Source: a bacterium | GTDB lineage: Bacteria > Patescibacteriota > Minisyncoccia > UBA6257 > 2-01-FULL-56-20 | Reading direction: 5' to 3' | Assembly: GCA_027310625.1 (NCBI GenBank) | Contig: DAIDAM010000006.1 | Location: forward strand, 1-47,014 | Length of the DNA: 47,014 bases | Program-made: the position numbers and the translations under genes | In this document: positions 37,545 through 44,949 of the stretch, piece by piece | Position numbering within the stretch: the first letter of the stretch is position 1 | Layout: every line of letters starts with the position of its first letter | Notes under the pieces: generated by a model | Told to the model about the DNA's origin: nothing | Databases searched by the model: none | Seen by the model: only the letters and a program-made list of their open reading frames with translations

Positions 37545-39527
37545 ATGAAGCAAGAGCAAAACAAAATTAAATACTTTATCTATGCCAGAAAGTCGTCCGA
37601 GAGCGAAGATAGACAGGTGCAATCTATTGACGACCAAACAAATCGGCTGAAAAAACTTGCGGCAGATTTAAGTTTGGATATTAAAAAAATCTATACCGAA
37701 GCGAAGTCGGCAAAGAAGCCAAACAATCGCCCCATCTTTGACGAGATGATACAACGAATTGAAAACGGCGAAGCGGGCGGGATTTTGTGCTGGCAGATAA
37801 ATCGCCTCTCCCGTAATCCGATTGATAGCGGTAAGTTAAGCTGGCTTTTACAGCGAGGAGTGCTCAAATCAATCCAGACGATAGACCGCCAATATCTCCC
37901 AGAGGACAATGTGCTTTTATTCAGCGTTGAAAGCGGCGTTGCCAATCAATACATTTTAGATTTAAGCAAAAACACCAAGAGGGGTATGCTTTCAAAGCTG
38001 GAGAAGGGCTGGCAAACAGGAGTAGCACCGCTCGGCTATCTCAACGACAAAGAAAATAAAATCATCATCAAAGACCCAGAGCGTTTTAATCTTGTCCGCA
38101 AGATGTGGGATTTAATGCTTACTGGCAACTATACCCCGCCAAAGATTTTGGATATGGCGAATAAAGAATGGGGCTTTAAGACAAGAAAGTTTAAGAGGAT
38201 GGGCGGCAACGAATTATCACGAAGCGGTATTTACAAGATTTTTACCAGCTTGTTTTACGCAGGAATTATAGAAAATGCAGGAGTTCAGTATGAGGGGCAA
38301 CACGAGCGAATGATTACGCTTGAGGAGTATGACCGAGTGCAAATGCTTCTTGGTAGAAAGGGTAAGCCAAGACCAAAACACCACGAGTTTGCTTTTACTG
38401 GCTCAATGCGATGTGGCGTATGCAACTGCCTTTACACCGCCGAGACAAAGCAGAAGCTCCTCAAATCTGGCGAGATACGAAATCACACTTATTATCACTG
38501 CACGAGAAAAACCACCAAGATTAAGTGCAACCAGCGAAAAAATATCCCAGTGGACGATTTGGAAGTGATGATTGAAAAAGAAATTGAAAAATACACCATC
38601 CTGCCAGAGTTCTTGCAGTGGGCATTGGAAGGTTTGAATAAAAAGAACGATACCGAAATTGAGGATAGGACAAAAGTTTATGAAATGCGGCATAAAAATC
38701 TGGTGGAAACTCAAAAAGAGCTGGATGAGCTTACAAAAATGAGATACCGCCAACTCATTGATGATGAAACCTTTATCAAAGAAAAAAATATACTCCAAAG
38801 CAAAATCGCCCAAATGAAAGAAAATCTGCGGGAGACGGAGACACGAGCCGAGAAGTGGCTGGAGCTTACCGAAAAAACTTTTGCATTTGCTACTTATGCA
38901 CGAGCCGCTTTCCTGCGAGCTAACAAAATGGGCAAAGCAGGGTTAGAACTGAAGAAGGAGATTTTGCTGGCTCTTGGAAAAGTGCCGATAATTAAAGACC
39001 TAAAGCTCTTTATTGAACCGAATGAGTGGTTTGCGGAGATAGAAAATAGCTATCCTGCCCTTGAGCAGAAATACTTAAGGTTAGAACCGACAAAAATGCC
39101 GATAAATAAAGCAAAAACAGAAGCTCTCGCTTCTGTTCGTGCACACTGGCTCCGCAGGCAGGACTCGAACCTGCAACCTTGTCCTTACATTTGTCCCAGA
39201 GTTTCCTTTGGGGATGGACTATATCATCACCCTCTGCAGGGGCGAGGCGCTTCCCGTGGCACAAAAATTTTTGTGTGCTCGGTACTCCTTTTCAGGATAG
39301 TCTCTACACCTTCTCCGCTTTTATGCCGGAGCTTGGCTCGGGGTTGCCCTCCGCTTGCGCGGTCGGGGTTCTCCGATTTCACCTCGTGTTTCAACCCGAA
39401 TTACTTCGGGAAGCTGCGTTTAGTTCCACAGGGACCCGCTCTACCGTTGAGCTACTGCGGAATAGAAAAATTTTACCAATTAATCGGGAAAAATCAAACG
39501 CCCTACCCGCCCCGGGCGTGGTTTTGA
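37545..39527 (+). CDS. Large serine recombinase (integrase of the element)
   Basis: Catalyses integration and excision by a serine-phosphodiester mechanism. The N-terminal resolvase domain has YARKSSESEDRQ with catalytic Ser17, and ILCWQINRLSRNPIDSGKL. A recombinase domain follows (GVAPLGYLNDKENK ... LSRSGIYKIFTSLFYAG). The zinc ribbon is MRCGVCNCLYTAE with YYHCTRK, and a coiled coil spans about 385-470. Native sequence ends near residue 525; the frame then runs antisense through a terminator, tRNA-Asn and its intron to a stop at 39527. WLRRQDSNLQP is the classic tRNA-antisense tail, so the true C-terminus is uncertain. Confidence 0.88.
   Translation: MKQEQNKIKYFIYARKSSESEDRQVQSIDDQTNRLKKLAADLSLDIKKIYTEAKSAKKPNNRPIFDEMIQRIENGEAGGILCWQINRLSRNPIDSGKLSWLLQRGVLKSIQTIDRQYLPEDNVLLFSVESGVANQYILDLSKNTKRGMLSKLEKGWQTGVAPLGYLNDKENKIIIKDPERFNLVRKMWDLMLTGNYTPPKILDMANKEWGFKTRKFKRMGGNELSRSGIYKIFTSLFYAGIIENAGVQYEGQHERMITLEEYDRVQMLLGRKGKPRPKHHEFAFTGSMRCGVCNCLYTAETKQKLLKSGEIRNHTYYHCTRKTTKIKCNQRKNIPVDDLEVMIEKEIEKYTILPEFLQWALEGLNKKNDTEIEDRTKVYEMRHKNLVETQKELDELTKMRYRQLIDDETFIKEKNILQSKIAQMKENLRETETRAEKWLELTEKTFAFATYARAAFLRANKMGKAGLELKKEILLALGKVPIIKDLKLFIEPNEWFAEIENSYPALEQKYLRLEPTKMPINKAKTEALASVRAHWLRRQDSNLQPCPYICPRVSFGDGLYHHPLQGRGASRGTKIFVCSVLLFRIVSTPSPLLCRSLARGCPPLARSGFSDFTSCFNPNYFGKLRLVPQGPALPLSYCGIEKFYQLIGKNQTPYPPRAWF
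39112..39136 (-). terminator. Terminator of tRNA-Asn, inside the recombinase frame
   Basis: On the minus strand ACAGAAGC-GAGA-GCTTCTGT is an 8-bp perfect hairpin followed by five or six T, starting 10 bases downstream of the tRNA CCA. Confidence 0.85.
39147..39461 (-). tRNA. tRNA-Asn(GUU) interrupted by a group I intron
   Basis: The 5' exon is 39461-39428 and the 3' exon 39187-39147. Spliced, the acceptor stem is TCCGCAG/CTGCGGA with discriminator G and encoded CCA. The D arm is GCTCAACGGTAGAGC. The anticodon loop is CTGTTAA with anticodon GTT, and the T arm is GCAGG-TTCGAGT-CCTGC. The intron lies between anticodon positions 35 and 36. The anticodon stem is GGTCC/GGACA, with a G-A mismatch at 27-43. 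The recombinase frame runs into its 3' end, so the element probably used this gene as its target. Confidence 0.9.
39188..39427 (-). ncRNA. Group I self-splicing intron in tRNA-Asn
   Basis: The 240-nt intron begins GGAACTAAACGCAG and ends with G. P1 forms between exon CTGT and intron GCAG, with the required U-G pair at the splice site. The core elements are readable on the minus strand: CCGAGCCAAGCTC (Q/R region, about 39342-39330), AAGGTGTAGAGACTA (S region, 39312-39298) and GATATAGTCC (39226-39217), where GACTA and TAGTC form P7. This resembles the IC3 introns of bacterial tRNA genes. It encodes no homing endonuclease. Confidence 0.9.
39470..39497 (-). promoter_or_regulatory. Promoter of tRNA-Asn
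   Basis: On the minus strand the -35 TTGATT (39497-39492) and -10 TAAAAT (39475-39470) have a 16-base spacer, ending 8 bases before the mature tRNA 5' end. Confidence 0.6.
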
Positions 39528-39552: not shown

Positions 39553-40587
39553 ATGGAGACCGTTTTTGAAAAAGACATGAAACCCAAAAGAAAAGTCAGC
39601 GCTAATTTAGGTCGCACTCAGTATTTTCAAAGGGAGCGATTATATAAAGAGATTAGAAAACGTCTTGGTCCAGTCAGGCGTTGCCCTTTCTATAACGGTA
39701 AAAAATATCCTCAATTTGATAATAAAAGTCACAATGTTTTAAATCCGAAATTTCTAAACCCAGCCGTTCCTATTGAAGAGTTTGATTTTGCAAAAAAATC
39801 AAACGACAAATGGGGTCTCCAAGCTTACTGCAGAGTTTGCTACAAAGCTTATAGAGATGCTCGAATAGGAAAAGCTCGTGAGACTTGGATTCGAAAGAGC
39901 GGTGCTCCCATGACAGATGACAAAATCAGGAGCTGGTATCGCAAAAACGTAGGTCCGACAATGGCATGTTCGGTATGTAAACGCGAACTAGACCCTAAAA
40001 ATTTTGCCATTTCCAGAAGCATGGAAAAGGGACTCCATAATGAATGTTTTGATTGTCAGGCAGCACGAGGAGGTTCTGTACGAGAACAGGAGTGGCTCTC
40101 GGACGGAGATTGGTCATCTTGGACAAAGACCGTGTTGAAAATGAGAAAAATGAAGAAAGTGAGGTGTGCGGGTTGGTCTCGTTCTGTGACAATGGGTTGG
40201 TGCCTTAAGTTTGGTAACGGTAAAAATATGCACGCTGACCACTATATTCCACTGCGGGCTGGCGGAATACATGATGTAAAAAATTTCCAGCCGCCCTGCG
40301 ATAGTTGTAATAGTAAGAAAAGCGATCAAATCGATCAGAAAACACCAATAAGTAAAATTATCAAACTCGTAGGCAATCCGTATAAAAATGTTATTAAATC
40401 GAAAGATTCAGTTTCCACGATTGAACGGAAATTGAAAGCCGCATTGCTCAAACGCATAGCTAACCTTGTTGACTCCAGTAAATACCTTGAGGCAATTCGT
40501 GCAAAAAAGAAAGAAGTTAATGGACAGTGGGATATAAACCGTGTCTATAAAAAAGGTGTTGAATGGCTAGACAGAAACCTTTCTTAG
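39553..40587 (+). CDS. HNH endonuclease, probable restriction partner of the LexA-methyltransferase
   Basis: A 344-residue protein. The N-terminal half has zinc-type cysteine pairs (YCRVCYKAY, ACSVCKREL, ECFDCQAAR). The nuclease is a classical HNH: GKNMHADHYIPLRAGGIHDV with the His-Asp-His start, Asn in VKNFQPP, and PCDSCNSKKSDQ with its Cys-x-x-Cys. It is AT-rich. ATG 39577 (MKPKRKVSANLGR) is an alternative start. The 3' end overlaps by 21 bp the 3' end of the convergent LexA-methyltransferase gene. An HNH gene paired with an orphan methyltransferase is a common type II restriction layout, which is why I infer restriction; a homing function is the alternative. Confidence 0.75.
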   Translation: METVFEKDMKPKRKVSANLGRTQYFQRERLYKEIRKRLGPVRRCPFYNGKKYPQFDNKSHNVLNPKFLNPAVPIEEFDFAKKSNDKWGLQAYCRVCYKAYRDARIGKARETWIRKSGAPMTDDKIRSWYRKNVGPTMACSVCKRELDPKNFAISRSMEKGLHNECFDCQAARGGSVREQEWLSDGDWSSWTKTVLKMRKMKKVRCAGWSRSVTMGWCLKFGNGKNMHADHYIPLRAGGIHDVKNFQPPCDSCNSKKSDQIDQKTPISKIIKLVGNPYKNVIKSKDSVSTIERKLKAALLKRIANLVDSSKYLEAIRAKKKEVNGQWDINRVYKKGVEWLDRNLS

Positions 40588-42213
40588 ACGTCCATGGCTG
40601 ATCTTTTCTGCCATAGGGTTAATATCAATTAAAGTAGATTTCCTATTCAGAAGCGAAGCGGCAACTCCCGTAGTTCCACTACCAGCTACTGGATCTAAAA
40701 TCCAATCTCCTTCACCCGAAGAAAGTTGTACTAATCTTTTCAAAAGTTCCAAAGGTTTTTGGGTTGGATATAATCTCTCATCCTTCGTAGTTCTTGTGAT
40801 ATAAGAGATATCATCCCATAGGTTTGAGAGAGGTTTGCCCTTACATTCGTGTTTATATAATTTCTTGTAAAGCATGGCTTTATTGTCACCATTCTTTGGT
40901 TTTGCGAAATGAATTCTATTTAATTTCATTAATTTTTCCAATTGATTTTTTGATATTTTCCAACCGTAGGGAGCTTCATAAACAATTCCATTTCTCTCTA
41001 TTTTATAGAAATGACCCCTCCGTGTTTTATCGTGTTTAATAGAGCCTAGGGCATAAAAACCAACCTCGTCTTTATTTTTGTACGAATTCTCAAAATAGTA
41101 CTGATCAAGCGGAACGTATAAAACATTGAATTTTGAACCATTGTCACTAGCTTTGTAGATAATATCAACCACAGAGCCGAGTTTGTTTTTAACCGTGTTC
41201 TTTCCGTGAGCTTTTTTCCAAAATATAGGTTCTACTTTTTTAAAATGTTTTGATAAAACCTTTTGCGGGATAAAAGAGAGTTCCGCGCTTATATGGAAGA
41301 ACAAGGAGCCGTTTTTATTAAGTTTTTCTTTGCAAAGGTATATTAAGCGGTCAAGCCATTGCTCGTATTGTCCGTCTTCCCATGTATCTTTAAAAATGTG
41401 GTCACTATCGTCAGCGGCGTATTTGTAATTTCTGTTTGAGTTAAAGGGAGGATCAAGATAGATTGTTGCATACTTGCGCTCAAGTTGTTGTAAAATCTGT
41501 AAATTGTCGCCTAAATAAAACTCGCACCCCTTTATAATCCATTCCGGCTTGGATGGTTTCTTTCTTTCTTGAGATTTTTTTATAGGCGCCTCTATGGTGT
41601 CTGTTGTTGAGAAATAATCACTTTTAATAACGTCTAGTACGATTCCTTTTATTTCAATCTTTCTGTCATTGTTTCTTATAATTATCGGTTCGAAATTCTT
41701 ATTCGCCGGCTGTAAACGAATTTGACCGCGCTCCTTATAAAATTTTTTCAGAGTTGCTTCGTAATTGTCAATTAAAGCCACTACTTTTTGCCCGTTTTCA
41801 GCTGTTTCTTGATGACGCACCAAAACGATATCGCCATCATTTATATTTTCCTCGATCATGCTGTTGCCTATGACGCGGAGCGCATAAATTTCGGACGATG
41901 GCGGTATCTTATTTTTAGGGACCGCTATGGTTTCGCTTGGTACGTCGAATAAAGTTATAGGTGAGCCGGCGGCGATTGTACCGAGCAGAGGAATTTTAAC
42001 CATTGGCGCCGAATCGAGAATTTCTATCCCGCGGCGCTGATTTTTGTTTAATCGTACAAAGCCGCCCTCTTCAAGTTTTCGCAGGTGTTCGTGAATAGTT
42101 CCGACCGCGCGTTTGAGCCCTTTAGATATTTCCGGAATGGAAGGGGAGTATCCTCGTTTTTTTGAGTACGACTTTACGAAGTCAAAAATTTCTTTCTGTT
42201 TTTTTGTGAGCAT
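40567..42213 (-). CDS. LexA repressor fused to a DNA methyltransferase
   Basis: A 548-residue fusion. Residues 1-65 are the LexA winged helix (LTKKQKEIFDFVKSYSKKRG to GFVRLNKNQRRGIEIL). Residues 72-200 are the S24 domain, with the Ala82-Gly83 cleavage site in LLGTIAAGSPI, Ser118 in VIGNSMIEE and Lys156 in ATLKKF, the complete self-cleavage apparatus. After a charged linker, residues 225-548 are an amino-methyltransferase of the beta class, with motif IV YLDPPFNSNRNY (Asp254) and motif I LDPVAGSGTTGVAA (about 506-519). Expected behaviour, by analogy with LexA, is self-repression relieved by RecA-stimulated cleavage, which would separate the DNA-binding domain from the methylase. Confidence 0.9.
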   Translation of the reverse strand: MLTKKQKEIFDFVKSYSKKRGYSPSIPEISKGLKRAVGTIHEHLRKLEEGGFVRLNKNQRRGIEILDSAPMVKIPLLGTIAAGSPITLFDVPSETIAVPKNKIPPSSEIYALRVIGNSMIEENINDGDIVLVRHQETAENGQKVVALIDNYEATLKKFYKERGQIRLQPANKNFEPIIIRNNDRKIEIKGIVLDVIKSDYFSTTDTIEAPIKKSQERKKPSKPEWIIKGCEFYLGDNLQILQQLERKYATIYLDPPFNSNRNYKYAADDSDHIFKDTWEDGQYEQWLDRLIYLCKEKLNKNGSLFFHISAELSFIPQKVLSKHFKKVEPIFWKKAHGKNTVKNKLGSVVDIIYKASDNGSKFNVLYVPLDQYYFENSYKNKDEVGFYALGSIKHDKTRRGHFYKIERNGIVYEAPYGWKISKNQLEKLMKLNRIHFAKPKNGDNKAMLYKKLYKHECKGKPLSNLWDDISYITRTTKDERLYPTQKPLELLKRLVQLSSGEGDWILDPVAGSGTTGVAASLLNRKSTLIDINPMAEKISHGRLRKVSV

Positions 42214-42321
42214 AACTTCATTATAACATCCGACCCGAAAGAAACCCGAAAGTTATGCACAGTTTGTTAAACTGGCAATTTGAAAGTTGTGAAAGATTAA
42301 GATAAAATTGAAAGCACTTCA
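42214..42321. promoter_or_regulatory. Divergent control region of the LexA-methyltransferase locus
   Basis: For the fusion gene, TATAAT (42225-42220) ends 7 bases before the ATG, implying a leaderless or very short-leader mRNA. Two direct repeats of ACCCGAAAG (42233-42241, 42244-42252), 11 bp apart, cover its -35 zone. Further on is the palindrome CAGTTT-GTT-AAACTG (42260-42274). For the protease gene, -35 TTGAAA (42280-42285) and -10 TAAAAT (42303-42308) have a 17-base spacer. The repeats or the palindrome are the likely LexA-type operators; neither matches the Escherichia or Bacillus consensus. Confidence 0.6.
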
Positions 42322-43347
42322 ATGGATAGGAAACAACTTGTACAACAGATTGAAGCATTGCGGAAGTCGCGGGTAATTGCGTACCTAACAAGCGATAGGC
42401 AGGGACCCTTTAATGCTCGAATTGCGACCGATGTTATACCACTTGTAAGTAAGCAACTTCAAACTATAGGCAAAGTCCAAAATATCGACTTGTTTCTATA
42501 TAGTGCTGGTGGAGATACTATGGTTCCATGGCGTTTGGTTTCTATGATTCGTGAACATTGTGATAAGTTCTCGGTGCTTGTGCCATATAAAGCACACAGC
42601 TCCGCGACAATGATCGCTTTAGGCGCAGACGAGGTCGTAATGAGTAATTTGTCAGAACTCTCGCCAATTGATCCATCAACGGCTAATATTTTTAATCCGC
42701 AAGATCCGCAGAATCCTCAAAATAAAATCGCGATTTCTGTTGAGGATGTGATGGCATATTTCGATTTGGCGAAAAATAAATTCGGAATCAAAAATGACGG
42801 AGAGCTGACTAAGATTTTCAATAAATTTGTTGAGTCTAGTCCACAAATTCATCCATTAGCGCTAGGTAATGTTAACAGAATCCATAATCTTATTCGGATT
42901 TTAGCCAGGCGGTTATTGAGGAGTCATAAGACGCCACTTAAGGACGACGAAGTTGACAAAATCGTGGATTTTTTCACAGAGAAACTATATTCTCATCAAT
43001 ACTTCATTGGTAGGAGAGAGGCGAAAGAAGACTTAAGTCTAAAGACAATTGTTGAAGCACAAGATTTACTTGTAAAAGCTATGACTGGTTTGTATGAGGA
43101 ATATAATAAAGAATTAGAATTCGGGAAAATTTGGAATCCCGAGAACGAGCTTGGCCCGAATGCGGTTCAAAACAGGAAAAATTATAGAATTGCTTATATA
43201 GAAAGTTTGCAACTTTCAAATTATTACGACATTTCTGTTGAATACAGGAAGCAACAGACAAATATAGTTCAACAAACGCCTCAAGGGCCAATTCAAATTC
43301 CTCAAGAACAAGTTGTTTTCAGAATCATTGGGCAGGGATGGAAATGA
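42322..43347 (+). CDS. ClpP/SppA-fold serine protease (SDH_sah-like)
   Basis: A 341-residue soluble protein. FLYSAGGDTMVPWRLVSMIRE is the crotonase-fold oxyanion segment (SxGGD). PYKAHSSATMIALGADEVVMS carries the candidate nucleophile serine, and LSELSPIDPS follows in the pattern of the serine dehydrogenase proteinase family (SDH_sah, PF01972). No signal peptide or membrane helix is visible, so it should act in the cytoplasm. The C-terminal 150 residues are helical and unrecognised. It is divergent from the LexA-methyltransferase and shares its control region, so it could be co-regulated, for example clearing LexA cleavage fragments. That role is inference. Confidence 0.75.
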   Translation: MDRKQLVQQIEALRKSRVIAYLTSDRQGPFNARIATDVIPLVSKQLQTIGKVQNIDLFLYSAGGDTMVPWRLVSMIREHCDKFSVLVPYKAHSSATMIALGADEVVMSNLSELSPIDPSTANIFNPQDPQNPQNKIAISVEDVMAYFDLAKNKFGIKNDGELTKIFNKFVESSPQIHPLALGNVNRIHNLIRILARRLLRSHKTPLKDDEVDKIVDFFTEKLYSHQYFIGRREAKEDLSLKTIVEAQDLLVKAMTGLYEEYNKELEFGKIWNPENELGPNAVQNRKNYRIAYIESLQLSNYYDISVEYRKQQTNIVQQTPQGPIQIPQEQVVFRIIGQGWK

Positions 43348-43384
43348 ATTTGCTAAAAATTAATTTTTTATTAAAGTTTATAAC

Positions 43385-43963
43385 ATGACTAATAACAGGA
43401 TAATAATCATCGGCACAGAAAAAACAATTCAGCCTTCGTCATCTTGGTGGGGAGCAGAGGATAGCAGCGTTTTCGTAGTATCTGCATATGGATATAGCTC
43501 TCGAGTCGCGGGCAAGTATAAAGCAGAATACTTTGTTGAATCATGCAGTGTTGTTAACTCCCGAAGCGGCTGTGTAAACGAGTTTAATCCTTTTAAAAAT
43601 TCGGTTGATTTTGAACAAGATTTTCTATACGAAGATATTTGTAGATTTAGATTTGCTGAGAGTTCTGTAGATAAAGTTCATAATTCTTTTCTCGGTTCTG
43701 GTTTCCATTTAGAAGGAAGTGAGTTCGCGGTTGCATTTACTGCATACGTTTCGGAGCAAATGGGGTACAGCCCATGGGTTGTAATCCAACCGGATGAGAG
43801 TAATCTCATAGAATTCTGCAAAAGCAGAGGATGGACATTCACGGTTCTGGGTGACGCAAAATGTGGAATTTCTAGAAGCGTGCAGAAAATTATAAATGAT
43901 ATAGTATCCACCAAAACTAACGCAAAAATTTACCAAATTTCTAGCAGAGATTATTTTTCTTGA
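43385..43963 (+). CDS. Unknown protein downstream of the ClpP-like protease
   Basis: A 192-residue soluble protein. The N-terminus NRIIIIGTEKTIQPSSSWWG begins with a beta strand and a possible loop. Later segments include FAVAFTAYVSEQMGYSPWVVIQP and LIEFCKSRGWTFTVLGDAKCG. I do not recognise a family. It starts 37 bp after the protease and shares its AT-rich composition, so it probably belongs to the same transferred locus. Confidence 0.55.
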   Translation: MTNNRIIIIGTEKTIQPSSSWWGAEDSSVFVVSAYGYSSRVAGKYKAEYFVESCSVVNSRSGCVNEFNPFKNSVDFEQDFLYEDICRFRFAESSVDKVHNSFLGSGFHLEGSEFAVAFTAYVSEQMGYSPWVVIQPDESNLIEFCKSRGWTFTVLGDAKCGISRSVQKIINDIVSTKTNAKIYQISSRDYFS

Positions 43964-44309: not shown

Positions 44310-44549
44310 ATGACTCAAAAAGTTTTGAAAGTCGGTTCGTCTGCTGCCGTCACCATTCCCAAAAAATCTTTGGAGGAACTGAACTTGCGTCCCGGAGACA
44401 GAGTTATTGTCGAGGTTGATAAAAAAACCCGCTCCGTCTCTATTCGTCCTTCAAAAGGGACATCAAGCCGCGAGCGGCGAATTGCCGAGCTCACCTATAA
44501 CTTTATTGAGCGTTACCGCAGCGATTTAGAAGCACTGGCGAAAAAGTAA
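44310..44549 (+). CDS. AbrB/SpoVT-type antitoxin
   Basis: A 79-residue protein. The N-terminal swapped-hairpin domain reads KVLKVGSSAAVTIPKKSLEELNLRPGDRVIVEVD, the standard AbrB/MazE-type fold that binds its own promoter. The C-terminal helix (RRIAELTYNFIERYRSDLEALAKK) is the part expected to wrap the toxin. It is followed after 4 bp by a Doc-type toxin gene. Confidence 0.85.
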   Translation: MTQKVLKVGSSAAVTIPKKSLEELNLRPGDRVIVEVDKKTRSVSIRPSKGTSSRERRIAELTYNFIERYRSDLEALAKK

Positions 44550-44553
44550 GCTC

Positions 44554-44949
44554 GTGAAGTACCTATCGGCGACAGAAATTCTCCAGATTCATTCTATGCT
44601 CGTTGATGAGACGGGAGGTATCCATGGCATACGTGACCGGCGCGCCATTTTAAGCCTGGAAAACGCACCGAAACAAAATGTTTTCTGGAAAGAACTTTAT
44701 CCCAATGTCTTTGAAAAAGCTGCCGTGTATGCAAGAGACATCATTATGAATCACCCATTCGTTGACGGAAACAAGCGGACTGGCATGACTGTCGCTTCTG
44801 TGTTTCTTGAAGACAACGGCTACAATATTGAAACAAAGAGGGGAGAAATAGAGAAATTCGCCTTAAAAATAATCAGAGGAAAACTTGAGATAAAAGCAAT
44901 CGCCGCCTGGTTCGAAAATAACTCGCGGAAAACAAAGAGTAAAGCTTAG
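44554..44949 (+). CDS. doc: Doc/Fic-type toxin
   Basis: A 131-residue protein with GTG start. The Fic motif is HPFVDGNKRTGMT (HxFx[D/E]GNKR), with the typical Doc N-terminus YLSATEILQIHSMLVDETGG and IRDRRAILSLENAP. In phage P1, Doc phosphorylates EF-Tu and blocks translation; other Fic proteins transfer AMP. The antitoxin here is AbrB-like rather than Phd, a known variation. All catalytic residues are present, so it should be active. The stop overlaps the first base of the next open frame. Confidence 0.88.
   Translation: MKYLSATEILQIHSMLVDETGGIHGIRDRRAILSLENAPKQNVFWKELYPNVFEKAAVYARDIIMNHPFVDGNKRTGMTVASVFLEDNGYNIETKRGEIEKFALKIIRGKLEIKAIAAWFENNSRKTKSKA

Follow-up and report, generated by a model that had tools for sequence, protein, structure and literature searches.

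In a type II restriction-modification (R-M) system, restriction must not outpace modification, yet none of the known controls (C proteins, methyltransferases [MTases] fused to a helix-turn-helix [HTH] domain, and antisense RNA) senses DNA damage. Here we describe a locus on the 47,014-nucleotide contig DAIDAM010000006.1 (assembly GCA_027310625.1), referred to as a whole as the window, in which the MTase of a predicted type II R-M pair is fused to LexA. The nearest described class is that of the fused-HTH regulatory MTases M.SsoII, M.Ecl18kI, and M.EcoRII (PMC12707154), in the review of which LexA goes unmentioned. Our locus resembles this class in having an N-terminal DNA-binding regulator on the MTase, autorepression (here predicted), and a paired restriction endonuclease (REase). 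It differs in possessing a full LexA with its autoprotease rather than a bare HTH, in a predicted damage input, and in belonging to a family with mainly beta-type or D12 amino-MTases. Further, whereas in the SsoII/Ecl18kI type the operator lies between the R and M promoters, here the REase gene is convergent and the operator is unshared. A likeness to the C-protein-controlled type II systems, such as PvuII, is seen in a small XRE C-protein-like gene (~70 to 90 aa) that lies directly upstream of the nuclease gene in 30 of 81 related loci; in contrast to those systems, the MTase would be under the control of its own LexA, and the window locus has no C-like gene.

Through sequence and structural analyses, we arrive at the probable reading that this is a type II R-M cassette whose MTase bears an entire and seemingly cleavable LexA and acts as an SOS-cleavable autorepressor, such that damage would raise the MTase over the REase. 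The source genome (766 kb in 21 contigs, one of which is the window) has relatives within the candidate phyla radiation (CPR)/Patescibacteria, bacteria that are tiny and for the most part uncultured. The sequence-only reading had proposed four AT-rich open reading frames (ORFs) here, for an HNH nuclease, a LexA-methylase, a ClpP-like protease, and a protein of unknown function. All four are present where it placed them, with the domains described (the last, an orphan, has no domain match), and the GC content of the segment is indeed low (0.37 to 0.40 versus 0.45 to 0.52 in most flanking kilobases). The circuit that it drew from them shrinks to two genes plus an operator, with the following features.

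39553-40587, + strand: HNH nuclease ORF, predicted restriction endonuclease (PF01844, 2e-7; also PF14279)
40567-40587: 21-bp tail-to-tail overlap of the convergent nuclease and fusion genes
40567-42213, - strand: LexA-MTase fusion ORF, one uninterrupted frame of 548 aa (LexA, TIGR00498, 179 bits; cutoff, 111 bits)
Fusion residues 1-62: LexA winged HTH (wHTH)
Fusion residues 75-192: S24 autoprotease (Peptidase_S24, PF00717, 3e-29)
Fusion residues ~200-221: disordered linker (low AlphaFold confidence; mean predicted local distance difference test score, 68)
Fusion residues 250-538: beta-type amino-MTase (N6_N4_Mtase, PF01555, 2e-32, 114 bits)
41746-41748, - strand: codon of Lys156, predicted catalytic lysine (kept in 94/95 fusions; aligned with LexA structures)
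41860-41862, - strand: codon of Ser118, predicted catalytic serine (kept in 94/95 fusions)
41965-41970, - strand: codons of Ala82-Gly83, predicted autocleavage site (Ala82 in 94/95 fusions, Gly83 in 93/95)
42220-42225, - strand: -10-like TATAAT, 12 bp before the fusion ATG (from sequence)
42235-42251, - strand: putative LexA-type operator TTTCGGGTTTCTTTCGG, a direct repeat with a period of 11
42253-42261, + strand: DnaA-box-like site TTATGCACA, 1 bp from the operator

The N-terminal half of the fusion shares with LexA proteins both the wHTH and an S24 domain with the Ala-Gly, Ser, and Lys residues. In the MTase half, a DPPF motif IV precedes a DPVAGSGTT motif I, and both the S-adenosylmethionine-binding and catalytic motifs are present. 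The AlphaFold model has a confident LexA and a confident MTase core joined by the low-confidence linker, and Foldseek matched it to LexA (3k2z) and to CcrM-type MTases (CcrM, 6pbd). This protein is the sole LexA of its genome; a second one was considered and rejected, as the remaining S24 match is a signal peptidase. The host encodes recA, and RecA was found in 96 of the 101 genomes searched. Two variants depart from the standard architecture. At L067 (6432-7499), the fusion consists of a LexA winged helix and an MTase, with no S24 domain, next to a convergent partner of the family seen at L036, L043, and L065. At L063 (4561-6403), a LexA head (64 aa) and an S24-MTase (547 aa) each have an ORF of their own, side by side, which resembles a fusion that is already cut or else reflects an assembly frameshift.

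An operator in its own promoter, as is typical of LexA, is predicted for the fusion at 42235-42251. We scored the pattern TTTC[GT][AG]-N5-TTTC[GT][AG], allowing one mismatch, in two partly shared sets of fusions: the 36 loci recovered by a search of 200 relatives (including the window's own) and the 66 of 80 loci with a fusion in a GTDB scan that sampled the best 80 LexA relatives. The pattern is present in 30 of 36 fusion promoters (1.3 expected) and in 53 of 66 (~3.6 expected). The motif TTATNCACA recurs alongside, in 27 of 36 (0.4 expected) and 39 of 66 (1.1 expected); its only occurrence in the window is the DnaA-box-like site at the fusion promoter. The promoters of the nucleases have the operator repeat in 1 of 57 cases and TTATNCACA in none of the 57, and those of the standalone lexA genes in the GTDB set have the DnaA-box-like motif in 2 of 13. 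Where it accompanies a LexA box, TTATNCACA may point either way, and its distance from the box is often about one or two turns of the helix. The box fits LexA because direct-repeat LexA motifs are already known: it resembles the GTTC-N7-GTTC of Alphaproteobacteria (PMC8565304), and such motifs are cited for Patescibacteria in PMC7739468. Across the 766-kb genome, TTTCGGGTTTCTTTCGG has two exact matches, the second of which lies inside a coding ORF, and no LexA box was found upstream of recA. From these exact matches and the recA promoter, a LexA regulon is not supported, and the fusion is probably not an SOS master regulator. Unlike the classical LexA, it carries an MTase, and the only exact intergenic box in its genome lies in its own promoter, which, as for LexA, is predicted to be autoregulated.

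Most of these loci also have a second gene, facing the fusion. Defining a tight partner as a convergent gene of at least 100 aa with a spacing of -60 to +30 bp, we found one in a deduplicated locus set for 78 of 92 fusions. Of the standalone LexA genes, 1 of 15 had such a partner, as did 40 of the 548 remaining genes from the same loci (7%); the corresponding Fisher P value of 4.5e-55 overstates the significance because of shared ancestry among the loci and genomes. The partner usually overlaps the 3' end of the fusion by a few bases. Pfam analysis of 71 partners matched 13 families, every one of them a nuclease, including MvaI/BcnI, TaqI, EndoVII, Bsp6I, MamI, BsaWI, MunI, BglII, Tsp45I, NgoFVII, and HNH, and PADLOC called most of the matched partners REase_II (type II REases). 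Partners without a Pfam match (e.g., at L033, L036, L038, L057, and L063) are, by position, candidate new restriction endonucleases. In the window, the slot is filled by the HNH protein, which has the intact motif HADHYIPLRAGG..N..PPCDSCNSKK; the convergence and 21-bp overlap with the fusion reported in the sequence-only reading are real. That reading had also weighed kinship with intron homing endonucleases, which we reject: the ORF starts at 39553, outside the group I intron of the neighboring tRNA gene (39195-39496), and converges with the MTase in the REase position. Searches for relatives of the HNH protein found no viral or close ones, only weak HNH-core matches to phage EndoVII/HNH proteins. 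The pair thereby combines the MTase motifs and linked nuclease of a type II system, in an arrangement occupied elsewhere by recognized REases.

The fusions of the GTDB set come mostly from the CPR; the rest are from scattered metagenome-assembled genomes with labels such as Omnitrophota, Elusimicrobia, and WOR-3, which may in part result from misbinning. At least 21 fusion-length frames are present among the best hits in 379 genomes of the phylum, where most LexA hits are standalone. Identity to the window's fusion ranges from 42 to 77% in the LexA half and from 14 to 30% in the MTase half, and across the family, the MTase halves belong to the N6/N4 (beta-type), D12, C5 (3 of 36), and Eco57I types. 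These comparisons indicate a conserved LexA half and swapped MTase halves. Two pairs of loci capture the exchange: L047 and L099 have LexA halves that are 97% identical, MTases that are 42% identical, and unrelated nucleases, whereas L053 and L162 share 75% identity in the MTase and a common nuclease family, with LexA halves only 44% identical. Thus, as judged from the sequences, MTase and nuclease travel together, and LexA halves are exchanged between R-M pairs. The joint inheritance of MTase and partner types would indirectly favor a recognition site common to the two enzymes. In the LexA tree, the bootstrap of which is not yet settled, standalone LexA proteins are interspersed with fusions and host lineages are mixed, with 11 label changes, at least 4 of them forced by well-supported branches. 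Among plasmid matches, we found the MTase alone or S24/MTase remnants at 27% identity and no fusion. No LexA-MTase fusion was found in the literature searched, which did not cover the study of the Patescibacteria LexA network by Sanchez-Osuna et al. (2017; 10.1111/1462-2920.13826), where one could be mentioned.

These observations suggest the following mechanism. The intact fusion would bind the TTTC-N7-TTTC repeat and repress its own gene, holding the MTase at a just-sufficient level. RecA filaments on single-stranded DNA, formed at lesions or at nuclease cuts in under-methylated host sites, would trigger cleavage at Ala82-Gly83, which would shed the DNA-binding head and leave the S24 dimer domain joined to the MTase. 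The operator would then open and MTase synthesis rise, while the nuclease gene, with no box in its promoter, would be met by transcription converging from the side of the MTase. Because the cleavage would remove only the head, the operator is on the MTase side alone, and the nuclease is outside the control of the box, damage is predicted to raise M over R, the ratio climbing until the damage ends, as in a damage-sensing homeostat or a restriction-alleviation switch. Upon entry into a new host, where the repressor is absent, the MTase would be made first. A damage-linked relief of self-restriction has a precedent in the alleviation of the type I enzyme EcoKI by ClpXP, as described in PMC4231737 and PMC11109961; by that account, EcoKI alleviation operates by proteolysis of HsdR, while the LexA-MTase is predicted to act by induction of a type II MTase.

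The LexA domain might instead provide the MTase with plain feedback, its autoprotease being vestigial or retained for dimerization and never triggered in vivo. HTH-fused regulatory MTases are, after all, established (PMC12707154), the operator is confined to the MTase promoter, the L067 protein keeps the HTH without S24, and the genome yielded no other perfect intergenic LexA box and none at recA. We nevertheless consider such a plain autorepressor unlikely, since the cleavage site, Ser, and Lys are kept in 93 to 94 of 95 diverse fusions, where a mere dimerizer would not need all four residues, and since RecA is present. The proposal in the sequence-only reading that LexA cleavage changes protection also leaves room for an altruistic switch, in which cleavage, by inactivating or diluting modification, would expose a heavily damaged or infected cell to killing by the REase; R-M pairs can indeed be addiction modules (PMC3874152). 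This is very unlikely, as the predicted cut would remove residues 1 to 82 only, with S24 and the whole MTase remaining joined, and would derepress the MTase gene, an effect in the direction of greater protection. The flexible linker between a DNA-binding domain and an MTase might also suggest that LexA guides methylation to its own boxes, for local epigenetic marks rather than genome-wide protection. With only one exact intergenic box found in the genome, and with an adjacent cognate nuclease at most loci that would need genome-wide methylation, this is the least probable of the explanations considered.

Somewhat less improbable than such targeting, though even less likely than the altruistic switch, is the SOS-responsive defense circuit of all four genes that the sequence-only reading had envisaged, which includes the genes on the far side of the fusion promoter.

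42322-43347, + strand: SDH/ClpP-like protease ORF (SDH_protease, PF01972, 7e-12)
43385-43963, + strand: orphan ORF, no domain match

Their adjacency and similarly low GC content speak for such a circuit, as does one IMG/VR contig (L191), on which a LexA-MTase gene has a divergent neighbor with a ClpP fold. Yet the co-occurrence of the four genes that it would entail did not emerge: only 12 of 200 relatives have the protease, and in three of these (G009, G029, and G130) it is on contigs separate from the LexA hit, no relatives of the orphan were found, nor does it follow the protease in other genomes, and the genes upstream of fusions form a heterogeneous mix, with one SDH (the window's) and one Clp among 59. 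The four-gene island was therefore rejected; what stands is the HNH nuclease and LexA-MTase as a predicted R-M pair with a putative damage-sensing module.

Several points weigh against this pair being a damage-responsive cassette. A tight convergent partner is missing in 14 of 92 fusions, and Pfam leaves about half of the partners unrecognized; the window's HNH protein has no homolog found in the 200 relatives, as expected for fast-turning R-M specificity, and gets no REase-level database score; the window locus lacks a C-like gene; L067, retaining only the LexA HTH, implies that autocleavage is dispensable in some loci; and an MTase induced by the SOS response during infection could help the phage, so that the benefit is not obvious. 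We nonetheless prefer the SOS-cleavable autorepressor, by which the fusion probably lets the cell make more protection while its own DNA is being cut. If so, the LexA-MTase closes a loop between DNA breaks and protection, provides type II systems with a restriction alleviation of their own, and helps account for the presence and exchange of lethal nucleases in genomes as small as those of the CPR; a LexA-MTase with a convergent ORF would also be a simple marker for unrecognized restriction enzymes. More tentatively, and with the balance of our judgment slightly against it, these loci might constitute a widespread, modular CPR class of R-M systems in which LexA autocleavage senses self-restriction directly, nuclease cuts induce the MTase, the DnaA box adds a replication-linked input, and the LexA head is repeatedly recombined onto unrelated pairs.

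Among the neighbors, the SDH/ClpP-like protein is 74 to 81% identical to proteins in six other genomes (L179 to L184) from several families of the order, where it is not beside fusions; most relatives are without it, it has no constant neighbors, and it is possibly mobile. On the IMG/VR contig, the ClpP-family gene (L191:106-660) is positioned like the window's SDH protease, and the usual convergent partner (305 aa) lies beyond the fusion. Two features flank the segment on its other side.

37545-39527: serine recombinase ORF, reading into the tRNA gene and across it from the four genes
39143-39496, - strand: tRNA gene with a group I intron (39195-39496; Rfam RF00028, 51 bits)

The tRNA gene, which had been described as recombinase targeted, is real, and ARAGORN probably misses it because of the interrupting intron. 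The targeting did not hold up: the recombinase lies on the far side of the tRNA, and a search of the window for a second copy of 16 nt from the 3' end of the tRNA found none, so that the tRNA was rejected as an att site. The tRNA, intron, and recombinase are neighbors only. A 98-aa GIY-YIG-like ORF is divergent from the fusion at L037, L045, L053, L054, and L056 and also occurs upstream of a standalone LexA (L068). Directly past the AT-rich segment of the window, at 44310-44949, is a pair comprising an AbrB/MazE-like antitoxin and a Doc/Fic toxin.

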